From assembly GCA_021783475.1 (NCBI GenBank), contig JAJXTU010000010.1:1-33518 (forward strand): a DNA stretch of 33,518 nt, written 5' to 3'. How positions within the stretch are numbered: the stretch's first letter is position 1; each line of letters opens with the position of its first letter. Origin of the DNA: a bacterium. Its GTDB lineage: Bacteria > Thermodesulfobiota > Thermodesulfobiia > Thermodesulfobiales > Thermodesulfobiaceae. This document shows positions 11,395-26,768 of this stretch, in pieces. A model generated the notes under the pieces. It saw only the letters and a program-made list of their open reading frames with translations. It was not told where the DNA came from and did not search any database. Both the position numbers and the translations under genes were made by a program.

Positions 11395-12459
11395 GTGAAC
11401 AGTTTTCCAAAGCTTACTTCTTTAGTTCGTTGTGCTGGCTGAGCAGCAAAACTCAATCCAAAGGACCTAGGTGAGGTCTTAAAAGATTTACCAAAATTTG
11501 AGCATCCTGGACTAATTTTTAGCTCTGATGGCCTTGATGACGCAGGAGCTTTTGTGATAAAAGACGACTTAGCCATTGTTCAATCTGTTGACTTTTTCCC
11601 TCCTGTAGTAAACAGCCCCGACTTATACGGGAAGATTGCCGCTGCTAATTCGTTCTCTGATCTGTATGCCGTTGGAGCAAAGCCGATAACTGCATTAAAT
11701 ATTCTTGGATTTCCAAGATACGACATTGAACTCGATGTGATAAACGAAATACTTAGAGGCTCTCACGAAAAAGTTAAAGAAGCCGGTGCATTGATTCTTG
11801 GTGGGCACACTGTCGACGATTTAGAATTAAAATATGGACTTAGTGTTACTGGAATTGCAAAAAAGGATGAGCTGATTGCCCACAACAGAGCACAGCCAGG
11901 CGATATAATCATCCTTACAAAACCGCTTGGTACAGGAATACTCACTTCTGCCCTAAAAATTGACTTGATAGATGAAGAAGACATGAAAGACGCTCTCCAG
12001 TCTATGCAAGAGCTAAATTATTTTGCAGGCGAAGCACAGAAAAAGTTTAAAGCAACTTCTGGCACAGATATAACAGGATTCGGTTTAGTTGGACATGCAG
12101 TAAGTATAGCAAGATCCAGCAAAGTCGTATTTGAGATATATTCTAAATCACTGCCTATATTTGAAGGAGTTTTAAACCTTGCAAACGATAGCGTACTCCC
12201 TGCTGGGATATTTGCAAATATTGATTTTTATAAAGAGAATGTCATTGAAATAGGCAAAATTGATGAAAATTATAAATACGTTATATACGATCCACAGACC
12301 TCAGGTGGACTTCTTTCTACTTACAGTCCAGATGTCGTAGACGATGTATTAAGATTTTTGAAAGACAATGGAGTTGATGGACAAATTATAGGTAGTGTAA
12401 AAAAAGGAGCTGCGTTTAGTTCTGGTACAATCGTTTTTAAAGAAGGATCATTTAGATGA
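11395..12459 (+). CDS. selD: Selenide, water dikinase, Sec-containing (UGA at 11440-11442)
   Basis: GTG start after SD gaggaggtga; frame reads MNSFPKLTSLVRCAGUAAKLNPKDLGEVLKDLPKFEHPGLIFSSDGLDDAGAFVIKDDLAIVQSVDFFPPVVNSPDLYGKIAAANSFSDLYAVGAKPITALNI...; CAG-U-AAK is the SelD active-site loop. The ORF track starts only after the UGA. Confidence 0.95.
11443..11480 (+). promoter_or_regulatory. Candidate bacterial SECIS element downstream of the selD UGA
   Basis: AAGGACC-TAGGTGA-GGTCTT (11461-11480) can form a short hairpin with a G in the apical loop about 26-32 nt after the UGA. Confidence 0.5.
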
Positions 12460-21530: not shown

Positions 21531-21761
21531 ATGCGCACTTTGTTACAAATAAACTACCCCGATGTGAAAATTATAATTTCATTATTAATTCTATTATTTT
21601 TACTCTTTGTATTGTCAGCGGGGAGGTCTCCATATCTAAAAATAAATAGGGCGTCCAGCGCGATCATTGGCTCATGCTTTATTATAATATTTGGAATTCT
21701 AAACTTCGATCAAGCGGTAAGCTCTGTGGATATCAGGACAATAGCAATACTATTCAAATGA
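21531..21761 (+). CDS. N-terminal piece of split anion permease (ArsB/NhaD/SLC13-like)
   Basis: 76 aa, 2 TM, ends ...QAVSSVDIRTIAILFK*; starts immediately after the regulator stop codon. Confidence 0.65.
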   Translation: MRTLLQINYPDVKIIISLLILLFLLFVLSAGRSPYLKINRASSAIIGSCFIIIFGILNFDQAVSSVDIRTIAILFK

Positions 21762-22768
21762 TGATCCTGTCAGGAAGCTTGAAATTGGCTGGGTTTTTCC
21801 CAATGGCAGGTTCATTTCTAATCTCAAACGCAAAAAACAGAATTGCCTTGCTATATTTAACTATTTTTATTACAGGAATTTTTTCTATGATAATAATAAA
21901 CGATATAGTTTGTTTATTGTTTACACCAATAGTTATAATAATATGCTCTAGAACCAAAACCTACCCTATACCATTTTTATTAGGAGTAGCACTTGCATCC
22001 AATATTGGAAGTGCATGCTCTTTAATTGGAAACCCACAAAATATAATGATCGCAAATTTGTCCAAAATACCGTTTACAGTATATTTTATTAAAACATTGC
22101 CGATAAGTTTGCTTGGATTAATATTGGTTGCAATATTTTTACATATAATGTATAGAGATAGGTTGCCAAAAGAGATTTTGGATACAAAGTATAGAAAGTT
22201 TGTCTTTCACAAATATTTAGTTTACAAAAGTATTTTAATTTTGTTTTTTGTAATTTTAGGATTTGTGCTAAATCTCAATCAAGTTGTAGTTTCTAGTCTT
22301 GGCGTTGCGTTTCTAATGTTAACCAGAAGAATAAAGTCTGAAAAACTCATTAAAGAGGTAGATTACAGCCTCCTTCTAACTTTTATCGGACTTTTTATAG
22401 TGATAGGGGGAGTCGAAAAAAGTGGGGTTATAAATATATTGGTAAACGATATAGGACATAACCTTTTTAAAAATACAAGTTTTTTCTCATTTTTAACAGC
22501 AATACTATCAAACATCATCGGAAATGTTCCGGCAGTAATGATGCTCCATTACCTTATCCCAAATGAAAATGCCAACTACGGCTGGACAATGCTGGCTATC
22601 ATCTCAACATTGGCAGGCAATCTAACCCTTACTGGCTCAATTGCAAACCTAATAGTTGCTGAAATTGCTAAAAAGAATAAAATTGAAGTAAAATTTTTAG
22701 ATTATCTGAAAATTGGCTTTCCAACTACGATATTTCTTATATTTTTGAGTGTATTAATTATAAAATAA
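21758..22768 (+). CDS. C-terminal piece of split anion permease (ArsB/NhaD/SLC13-like)
   Basis: MMILSGSLKLAGFFPMAGSFLISNAKNRIALLYLTIFITGIFSMIIINDIVCLLFTPIVIII...LLGVALASNIGSACSLIGNPQNIMIANLSKI; ATG at 21758 overlaps the upstream stop (ATGA). Confidence 0.75.
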   Translation: MMILSGSLKLAGFFPMAGSFLISNAKNRIALLYLTIFITGIFSMIIINDIVCLLFTPIVIIICSRTKTYPIPFLLGVALASNIGSACSLIGNPQNIMIANLSKIPFTVYFIKTLPISLLGLILVAIFLHIMYRDRLPKEILDTKYRKFVFHKYLVYKSILILFFVILGFVLNLNQVVVSSLGVAFLMLTRRIKSEKLIKEVDYSLLLTFIGLFIVIGGVEKSGVINILVNDIGHNLFKNTSFFSFLTAILSNIIGNVPAVMMLHYLIPNENANYGWTMLAIISTLAGNLTLTGSIANLIVAEIAKKNKIEVKFLDYLKIGFPTTIFLIFLSVLIIK

Positions 22769-23740: not shown

Positions 23741-24391
23741 ATGAAAATAATACATATTTTTTCAGGTGGTTTAGACTCTACTACTCTTTTGTATTATCTA
23801 TTAGACAAGGGGCACAATGTTAAAACAATAAGCTTTTTTTACGGTCAAAAGCATAAAAAAGAGCTGAAATGTGCGCAAAATATTTCTAATATACTAAATA
23901 TAGAAAATAAATTGATTGATTTGAGATCTTTAAAGACAGTTTTTGGAGACAGTTCTTTAACGAGCGATTTAGATATACCCGAAGGAAGATACAACGATTC
24001 CAATATGAGGTCTACTGTGGTGCCAAATAGAAATATGATATTTTTATCTATCGCAATCTCGTATGCAATATCCTCAAATTTTGAAGCAGTGTCATTAGGA
24101 GCTCACGCAGGCGATCACGCAATATATCCAGACTGTCGCCCTATATTTATAAAAAAAATGAACGAAGTCGCAAAAGTATGTGATTATAAAAAAATCTTAA
24201 TATGCGCGCCTTTTTTAGACCTTAAAAAACACGAAATAGTAAAAATAGGACTAAAATTAAAAGTCCCCTATGAGTCGACATGGACATGCTATAAAGGAGG
24301 GAGGAAACCCTGCTTGAAGTGTGGTTCATGCTCAGAAAGATTGGAGGCATTCGAAAAAAACAACGTAAAAGATCCCCTACTCGTTATTTAG
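23741..24391 (+). CDS. queC: 7-cyano-7-deazaguanine synthase
   Basis: MKIIHIFSGGLDSTTLLYYLLDKGHNVKTISFFYGQKHKKEL; STWTCYKGGRKPCLKCGSCSERLEAF Zn site; ATG at 23741 has SD ggagag. Confidence 0.93.
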   Translation: MKIIHIFSGGLDSTTLLYYLLDKGHNVKTISFFYGQKHKKELKCAQNISNILNIENKLIDLRSLKTVFGDSSLTSDLDIPEGRYNDSNMRSTVVPNRNMIFLSIAISYAISSNFEAVSLGAHAGDHAIYPDCRPIFIKKMNEVAKVCDYKKILICAPFLDLKKHEIVKIGLKLKVPYESTWTCYKGGRKPCLKCGSCSERLEAFEKNNVKDPLLVI

Positions 24392-24595
24392 ACTCTTTTT
24401 TGCTTCTTCCACTACACGGTGGACATCAGCTAAACATCAAGTCCCCTTTGGGTTGTTTAAATGGCACGCGCATTGGCCATCTTTCTTTTTGCTTACTATG
24501 AATTGTTGAATCTTAGAAACGCCATTGTGCGATATTACATCTTCTTTAATCTCATCATCAGTAAAACCAAAGCAGTAACAAATAGTTTGACTCAT
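24377..24595 (-). CDS. Candidate selenoprotein: BFD/CopZ-like [2Fe-2S] small protein with Sec (UGA at 24437-24439)
   Basis: Own translation: MSQTICYCFGFTDDEIKEDVISHNGVSKIQQFIVSKKKDGQCACHLNNPKGTUCLADVHRVVEEAKKSLNNE*; SD ggtgag upstream of ATG; coding pattern continues unbroken across the UGA; CxC...NPKGxUCLxDV resembles CopZ/BFD-type CxC...NPKGxCC sites. Confidence 0.85.
24408..24423 (-). promoter_or_regulatory. Candidate SECIS hairpin for the small selenoprotein
   Basis: On the minus strand TCCAC-CGTGTA-GTGGA begins 13 nt after the UGA; 5-bp perfect stem, 6-nt G/U loop. Confidence 0.5.
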
Positions 24596-24664
24596 AACTC
24601 ACCACTTTTCTAAAATATTATTATTTTTATTATAATATAAATATAATTATAAATAACTAAAGGA

Positions 24665-24771
24665 GGTGTTGTCCGTGATTATAAGATGATTTTGAAATAT
24701 AGCCCCTGATAGATACGTAGTTTACGTATCAAAAAACTCTAAATCAAAGGAGAAATATTATGGACAACACC
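24665..24771 (+). promoter_or_regulatory. Potential structured mRNA leader of the double-cubane gene
   Basis: GGTGTTGTCC (24665-24674) is perfectly complementary to GGACAACACC (24762-24771, overlapping the start codon); an internal hairpin lies at 24712-24730. Confidence 0.5.
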
Positions 24772-26022
24772 GAAATGTACCAATCGCTTGACATAGATTT
24801 AAAGGCTCACGACACCCTAATGGGAGCACTTCCAGTATTATTTAAAGAATGTTTTTTAAACAAAGAGCAAGAACTGACAGGTCTTTCATATTTTTATTCA
24901 GTGGTTGCAGACATACACGGAGCAAGGGTGAAAGAGCTAATAGACCATAAAAACAAGGGCCCAGTCATTGGGTCTTTTTGCATTTACGTGCCAGAAGAAA
25001 TAGTTTTAGCAGCATGCGGTCAATTGGTAGGACTTTGTGCAGGGGCTGACTTTTGGGTTCCATACGGTGAACAGATAGTGCCAAAAAATCTGTGCCCCCT
25101 AATAAAGGCAGGAATTGGAGCAAAGTATTCAAGAACCTGCCCATATTTTCAGGTAGTGGATCTGCTAATAGGAGAAAATACCTGTGATGGCAAGAAGAAG
25201 GCATGGGAAATATTTTCTGATATGGTTGATATGTACATTATGGATATGCCAAACAAAAAAAGCGATGCTGGGTTAAAGCTTTGGCAAGAGGAAGTAGAGA
25301 ATTTATGCAATTTTCTTGAAAAAAAATTTAGCAAGTCTATTAGTTTTGACTCCCTCCTAAAAGGTATCCAAAAGGTAAACGCAAAAAGAAACGCACTGAA
25401 AAGGCTCTATAACACAAGGAAGCTCTCCCCTTCTCCAATATCAGGAATAGACGCCCTATTGGTTACTCAAATAGGATTTTATGATGATATAGAAAGATAC
25501 ACAAAGATGGTAGAAGCATTAGCCCAAGAATGCGAAGAGAAGGCATCATCAAATTCGCAAAGCAAGAACAAAAAAAGAATATTGGTTACCGGTTCACCAA
25601 TGGTTGTACCCAACTGGAAGATTCATCACGTAATAGAAACAAGCGGCGCTGATGTAGTAGTCGAAGAAAACTGCACGGGCACAAGATATTTCAAGGACAA
25701 CGTTTCAATAGAAAATGCATCAAGCAAGGGAGATTTGCTCAAGAACATATCAGATAGGTACATAAAAAACATAAATTGTGCATGTTTCTCGCCAAATACA
25801 GGCAGAGAGGAAGATATATTAAACCTTTGTAAGGATTATAGAGTTGACGGTATTGTGTATGCCTCCCTTAGCTTTTGTACTACATATATGGTAGAAGCAG
25901 AGAAAATAAGAAAAACAGCAAAAGAAAATAATATACCTATGATTACGGTAGAATCAGATTATTCATTTGGAGACCTTGGACAGCTTAGGACAAGAATAGA
26001 GGCTTTTATAGAAAACTTATGA
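24760..26022 (+). CDS. 2-hydroxyacyl-CoA dehydratase-like, double-cubane-cluster reductase (YjiM-like)
   Basis: GSFCIYVPEEIVLAACGQLVGLCAGADFWVPYGEQIVPKNLCPLIKAGIGAK; ILVTGSPMVVPNWKIHHVIETSGADVVVEENCTGTRYF; GIVYASLSFCTTYMVEAEKI. Confidence 0.85.
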   Translation: MDNTEMYQSLDIDLKAHDTLMGALPVLFKECFLNKEQELTGLSYFYSVVADIHGARVKELIDHKNKGPVIGSFCIYVPEEIVLAACGQLVGLCAGADFWVPYGEQIVPKNLCPLIKAGIGAKYSRTCPYFQVVDLLIGENTCDGKKKAWEIFSDMVDMYIMDMPNKKSDAGLKLWQEEVENLCNFLEKKFSKSISFDSLLKGIQKVNAKRNALKRLYNTRKLSPSPISGIDALLVTQIGFYDDIERYTKMVEALAQECEEKASSNSQSKNKKRILVTGSPMVVPNWKIHHVIETSGADVVVEENCTGTRYFKDNVSIENASSKGDLLKNISDRYIKNINCACFSPNTGREEDILNLCKDYRVDGIVYASLSFCTTYMVEAEKIRKTAKENNIPMITVESDYSFGDLGQLRTRIEAFIENL

Positions 26023-26768
26023 AAATACTTGGTTTGGATATAGGCTCAAGAAGTATAAAATGGGTTCTTTACGACAAAAGTTCAAATTCTATGTTAGAAA
26101 GGGGGATATTAGATAGCACCCCTGCCAATCTTGAGAGGGTGGAAGATAGCATCCCCCCTTTCGACCAAATTGGCCTTACCGGTTATGGCAGACATAATTT
26201 AAATAACGTCCTAAAAGTAAAGTCTCCAAAGATAGTCTCAGAGATAACTTGCCACGCTAAGGGAGCAAGATACATTGAACCAGAACACTATTATCTCTTA
26301 GATATCGGCGGACAGGACACAAAATTTATAATGGTAGATAGGTCTGGAAAAATTATAGATTTTAAATTGAATGACAGGTGCTCGGCTGGAACAGGCAGAT
26401 ATATTGAAAATATGGCAAAAATATTAGATGTAAAAATCCAAGACTTTATAGACATGGCCGTTAGATCAGAAAAGCCATCCAATATAAACTCGATGTGCAC
26501 TGTTTTTGCAGAAAGCGAAATAATAAGCTTGATTCATTCCAGGGAACAGATAGAAGACATTGCTGCGGGAGTTATAAAATCTCTAATATTCAGAACAAAA
26601 GCTTTGATTGGAACAAATAAGACAGACGAAAGCATGTTGCTTTTAGGGGGACTCTCAGAACTGCAGAATATAGAAATTTTATTCGAAAGATTTGACTTAA
26701 AAATCAAAAAAAATTTACTCTCAAGATACACGGGCGCCCTGGGAGCAGCATTGATTTTAGTCGACTAA
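26019..26768 (+). CDS. ATPase activator of the BadF/BadG/HgdC family (YjiL-like)
   Basis: MKILGLDIGSRSIKWVLYDK; LLDIGGQDTKFIMVDRSGKIIDFKLNDRCSAGTGRYIENMA; MCTVFAESEIISLIHS; ATGA overlap with the preceding gene. Confidence 0.92.
   Translation: MKILGLDIGSRSIKWVLYDKSSNSMLERGILDSTPANLERVEDSIPPFDQIGLTGYGRHNLNNVLKVKSPKIVSEITCHAKGARYIEPEHYYLLDIGGQDTKFIMVDRSGKIIDFKLNDRCSAGTGRYIENMAKILDVKIQDFIDMAVRSEKPSNINSMCTVFAESEIISLIHSREQIEDIAAGVIKSLIFRTKALIGTNKTDESMLLLGGLSELQNIEILFERFDLKIKKNLLSRYTGALGAALILVD

Follow-up and report, generated by a model that had tools for sequence, protein, structure and literature searches.

On the minus strand of the window, i.e., the whole stretch of 33,518 nucleotides analysed here, a short reading frame interrupted by a single UGA is, judging from its sequence, almost certainly a genuine gene, the product of which is an iron-sulfur protein of 72 residues containing selenocysteine (Sec). 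By sequence and motif, the protein is a further copy of the already catalogued GxUC selenoproteins (CopZ family form 1). Members of this family are common among sulfate reducers, and their genes often adjoin arsenic-resistance (ars) genes, namely for about a third of the sampled Desulfobacterota copies. The protein is likely a Sec-Cys chaperone for soft metal(loid)s or a Sec-Cys redox protein, a role that we infer from neighbourhood, fold and selenolate chemistry. The coordinates of the respective features are given in Table 1.

Table 1. Features of the window discussed in the text (positions refer to the whole stretch).
Feature	Position	Strand	Remark
GxUC selenoprotein CDS, 72 aa, TAG included	24377..24595	-	single BFD/CopZ-type [2Fe-2S] domain
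In-frame UGA, read as Sec	24437..24439	-	codon 53, first of the U-C pair in NPKGTUC
SECIS-like hairpin UCCAC-CGUGUA-GUGGA	24408..24423	-	compensatory changes among the about 118 relatives listed
Codon C6, first Cys of CxC (C6, C8)	24578..24580	-	invariant, cluster-ligand candidate
Codon C44	24464..24466	-	invariant, aligned with Cys109 of Archaeoglobus CopZ (2hu9)
Perfect palindrome GATACGTA-N3-TACGTATC (N3 = GTT)	24712..24730	.	between the divergent genes
Double-cubane-cluster anaerobic reductase (NF040772)	24760..26022	+	divergent neighbour, synteny 4/4
Acyl-CoA dehydratase-type activase of the double-cubane protein	26019..26768	+	
selD, selenophosphate synthetase	11395..12459	+	GTG start, in-frame UGA 11440-11442 (RCAGUAAKL)

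The interrupted frame and its conservation in the genus

The frame opens with an ATG at 24595 and ends with a TAG at 24379-24377, with the UGA as the sole interruption of its 72 codons. An earlier note on this DNA had described this frame as preceded by a Shine-Dalgarno sequence; its translation matches ours exactly, and the start is indeed preceded by a Shine-Dalgarno-like stretch (GTGGTGAGTT), which is weak but kept across the genus.

The phylum comprises four genomes, all from one genus; the source assembly has 1.9 Mb. Frame, UGA, downstream sequence and hairpin are kept in all four genomes, the protein identity within the genus is 77-97%, and synteny of the gene is conserved. With frame and UGA alike shared by 4/4 genomes, their occurrence is far above chance.

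Relatives and the Cys/Sec column

Relatives were searched in 386 genomes spread over the domain, of which 20 beyond the genus encode one. Except for two loci, these relatives show Cys-Cys at NPxGxCC: L019 has UGA-Cys at the pair, as in the window gene, while L029 (GIC-R) keeps the first Cys and has lost the second. More distant two-domain homologs also have NPxGxCC, i.e., Cys-Cys at the UGA column. Thus, homologs alternate between Cys and Sec exactly at this column and run on past it, none of them ending there, and the earlier placement of Sec at the first of the two Cys of an NPKGxCC-type motif holds. A search with the single protein sequence gave no match at its cut-off, and order- and phylum-wide searches returned nothing beyond the four genomes that make up the phylum.

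In addition, GTDB genomes were scanned with a DNA pattern spelling CxCF...NPxGxUC. At least 118 loci were found (among the matches listed, 115 keep the frame and 3 do not), where we estimate that chance would yield a few. The taxa among the matches listed are mostly Desulfobacterota, with some Nitrospirota and three actinobacteria. The actinobacterial copies (L113, L114, L118) have Sec at the same place of a protein with an N-terminal extension, such that the Sec form is not confined to the stand-alone protein. Within Desulfobacterota, 37/297 genomes have a match; the UGA is present in 35 of these 37, and both matches without it lie within longer frames. A more distant BFD-like frame with an in-frame UGA in NPRGRUC was observed in a Desulfatibacillum MAG (L069:4435-4589). 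A matching hairpin is absent at the usual place there, and the frame may be a chance occurrence or belong to another subfamily.

SECIS hairpin and decoding of the UGA

The hairpin consists of TCCAC (24423-24419), the loop CGTGTA (24418-24413) and GTGGA (24412-24408). It starts 13 nt past the UGA, exactly as the earlier note had it for a 5-bp hairpin, and its conservation comes with covariation, which is lacking in Cys homologs. Compared with dinucleotide shuffles, its folding reaches a z-score of -2.66 (as good in 3/200), and synonymous recodings of the encoded peptide fold less well (p = 0.02). An Rfam search gave no match at gathering thresholds.

Among the matches listed, the 118 relatives share a stem of seven pairs that begins 12 nt past the UGA and whose inner five pairs are kept in 95-99% of them. 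One pair covaries, i.e., the wobble position of a Val codon (C/U) with the first base (G/A) of the opposite Asp/Asn codon. The respective counts are C-G 94, U-A 18, U-G 4 and C-A 0 (Fisher p 1e-17, inflated since the sequences are related), and at least 12 changes are placed on the protein tree, which is based on 64 columns and poorly resolved. Measured against synonymous recodings, Sec genes have a mean folding z-score of -3.2 and 14 Cys homologs average -0.2, a contrast with the Cys controls that kinship leaves unexplained. That is, the hairpin lies just 3' of the UGA, carries G/GU in its apical loop and covaries, such that its identification as the SECIS for UGA decoding appears right.

With regard to the selenocysteine machinery, selA is encoded at C130:36737-38065 of the source genome and the tRNA-Sec gene (C111:1755-1844) lies directly upstream of selB (C111:1882-3729). 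The presence of selD in the window, already reported by the earlier note, is confirmed, and the gene has an in-frame UGA of its own. Since selD is thus itself a selenoprotein gene, it is called too late, i.e., standard ORF calling places its start at 11554 and not at 11395. Cys/Sec alternation, the covarying hairpin and the presence of selA, selB and tRNA-Sec in the genome together bear out the claim of a selenoprotein.

UGA is a stop codon by default, and this, along with NCBIfam scores under the curated cut-offs, would fit a true stop that leaves a truncated protein of 52 residues or a decayed gene. Against this stand the frame, motif and hairpin, which about 118 listed genes from several phyla conserve beyond the UGA, the compensatory changes and the complete Sec machinery. 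We thus rate a true stop as very improbable and consider it ruled out on sequence grounds. Even more improbable is a selenium-free reading in which suppression or recoding places another residue (Cys or Trp) at the UGA. It would agree with the Cys that homologs have at the UGA column, but elsewhere UGA acts as an ordinary stop, as at the end of selD, and SECIS covariation together with tRNA-Sec/selB fully accounts for the UGA, so that we reject a recoding of this kind. Given a Sec codon, SelB and tRNA-Sec would read the UGA, the hairpin serving as SECIS, and Sec would replace the first Cys of the NPxGx-Cys-Cys pair in a stand-alone BFD/CopZ-type protein.

Domain, fold and candidate ligands

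The best NCBIfam match of the protein is NF047645 (E 1.9e-16), which covers only model positions 86-137 of 138 and with 60.6 bits does not reach the curated cut-off of 100. The match to NF045877 is weaker (26.8 bits, cut-off 190), and 34/34 aligned members match both models. The Pfam match to Fer2_BFD is under its cut-off as well. A profile search leads to 2hu9, the structure of the N-terminal part of Archaeoglobus CopZ (E 4e-4), where C6/C8 align with C75/C77, C44 with C109 and the Sec-Cys pair with C118-C119. The single-sequence search had a ribosomal PDB entry as its sole match, which is spurious. The AlphaFold prediction has a pLDDT of 94.6, and the best solved structures found with it are Bfd ferredoxins, although with weak E-values (2.1). 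These sub-threshold family matches, the profile match to 2hu9 and the predicted fold are in line with the earlier assignment to BFD/CopZ-like [2Fe-2S] proteins.

Invariant residues are C6, C8, C44, U53 and C54, while C42 is nearly so. Five invariant candidates thus face four ligand places, such that Sec would be either a ligand or a free selenolate beside the cluster. That L029 keeps only the first residue of the pair is a weak hint at the first position, i.e., Sec, as the ligand.

Relation to known families

The table of selenoproteins in a review (PMC13188914, 2026) contains a CopZ family form 1 (cd10141, motif GxUC, WP_245779778.1) and a form 2 with the motif CU; both forms are also listed in PMC9312934 (2022). 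The name CopZ is absent from the main text of the 2008 GOS paper cited by PMC13188914. The window protein has a CopZ-like BFD domain (partial NF047645 match) and Sec as the first residue of the pair in GTUC. Its motif thus fits form 1, i.e., the family is already catalogued. Compared with the tabulated description of form 1, the window protein shares the Sec position, the motif GxUC and the CopZ-like BFD domain, and we found no difference.

The window protein fails both NCBIfam cut-offs and is not a full member of either family. CopZ_Nterm_CU (Csac_0668 family, NF045877, form 2) shares the BFD domain and a Sec in the vicinal pair, but its Sec is the second residue (motif CU) and the model includes additional N-terminal sequence. 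CopZ_Nterm_CC (NF047645, putative iron-sulfur cluster-binding metallochaperone) shares the C-terminal domain with CxC...C...NPxGxCC, but is Cys-Cys where the window protein is Sec-Cys, and has about 85 N-terminal residues that the latter lacks. Unlike the window protein, the Cys homologs L013, L020 and L022 continue into membrane and HMA-like parts. The N-terminal half of Archaeoglobus fulgidus CopZ (2hu9) has CxC...C...NPSGRCC, the end of which aligns with the Sec pair, but the protein is two-domain and Cys only. Bacterioferritin-associated ferredoxin (Bfd; 4e6k, 6e6r) shares the overall fold in a weak match; to our knowledge, it has neither the NPxGxCC motif nor Sec.

Linkage to arsenic-resistance genes in other lineages

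Genes for ArsR, arsenate reductase, ACR3, ArsE thioredoxin, ArsM and a SaoE/SO_0444-related permease recur as neighbours at other loci. At L038, 36 bases separate the end of the permease gene from the first Cys codon in the Sec gene. Some copies adjoin merR or mercuric-reductase-like genes.

The linkage was quantified for 35 Sec genes from Desulfobacterota, picked regardless of their neighbourhood, and 80 control stretches from the same phylum. An ars gene is found within 5 kb of 12/35 Sec genes compared to 2/80 controls (p 8e-6) and at least two ars genes near 10/35 compared to 0/80 (p 2e-6), where both p-values are optimistic since the sampled genomes are related and the controls were drawn from fewer genomes. 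About two thirds of the sampled copies are not beside ars genes. In the literature searched, which does not include the most relevant papers, no description of an ars linkage of GxUC genes was found.

Neighbourhood in the genus

Within the genus, queC is convergent with the Sec gene, and no ars operon adjoins it: none of the four genus copies lies beside ars genes. The divergent neighbour is assigned to the double-cubane reductases with 469 bits (cut-off 350). The palindrome between the divergent genes is the single copy in the genome (allowing for up to 2 mismatches), is conserved in 4/4 genus members and is a candidate for a dedicated operator.

An inverted repeat (GGTGTTGTCC / GGACAACACC, about 24650-24775, plus strand) is also present in 4/4 members. 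It joins the strong Shine-Dalgarno-like stretch of the leader (AAAGGAGGTGTTGTCC) to the start region of the double-cubane gene (ATGGACAACACC) and could be a leader structure that governs translation. About 1.6 kb past the 3' end of the Sec gene, an ArsB/anion-permease-like membrane protein is encoded (21674-22768, plus strand), which is under the family cut-offs and keeps its synteny in the genus.

Possible role

Sec identity, SECIS, machinery, family, fold class and the ars linkage in Desulfobacterota are read from the sequences; beyond these, we infer cluster occupancy, metal(loid) handling and a partner in the genus. The [2Fe-2S] cluster would be held by C6, C8 and C44 together with one residue of the U53-C54 pair. 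This vicinal Sec-Cys pair may form a soft, easily oxidised site. At such a site, a thiophilic metal(loid), i.e., As(III), Hg or Cu, could be bound or reduced, and it would be handed to an efflux or reductase partner in the anaerobic cytoplasm. The metal(loid) role of the GxUC protein, the likeliest of the readings, falls slightly short of an even chance. More tentative, and in our view rather unlikely, is a GxUC family dedicated to As and Hg handling in anaerobes. In this reading, As(III)/Hg(II) would bind to the Sec-Cys pair of a minimal [2Fe-2S] protein, the selenolate would be a direct cluster ligand or a bridge between cluster and metal(loid), and the cargo would go to an SO_0444/ArsP-type or ACR3 exporter.

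The main rival is electron transfer. Like Bfd for bacterioferritin, the Sec protein would be a small electron carrier that feeds reductases such as the double-cubane protein, with Sec tuning the [2Fe-2S] potential or forming a selenenyl-sulfide switch. The BFD fold from the structure search is consistent with such a carrier, which within the genus is favoured by its neighbourhood, i.e., by the divergent double-cubane reductase with its activase and the unique palindrome in between (4/4 members) as well as by the lack of an adjoining ars operon in the window. The reductase as genus neighbour suggests a redox role instead of metal(loid) handling. On the other hand, it is absent from the clusters that recur at other Sec loci, and the ars linkage as well as several merR or mercuric-reductase-like loci in other lineages argue against a mere carrier, which we regard as possible but doubtful. 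Taking Sec identity, family and the likely role as chaperone or redox protein together, we hold this overall reading with good confidence.

Implications

Standard ORF calling cuts the GxUC form at its UGA and its scores are well under the NCBIfam cut-offs, so the form may easily be dropped in annotation. For a selenoprotein family that so far has a catalogue entry but no characterisation, the ars linkage provides a role that can be tested. If Sec ligates the cluster, the protein would represent a natural selenolate-bound [2Fe-2S] site.
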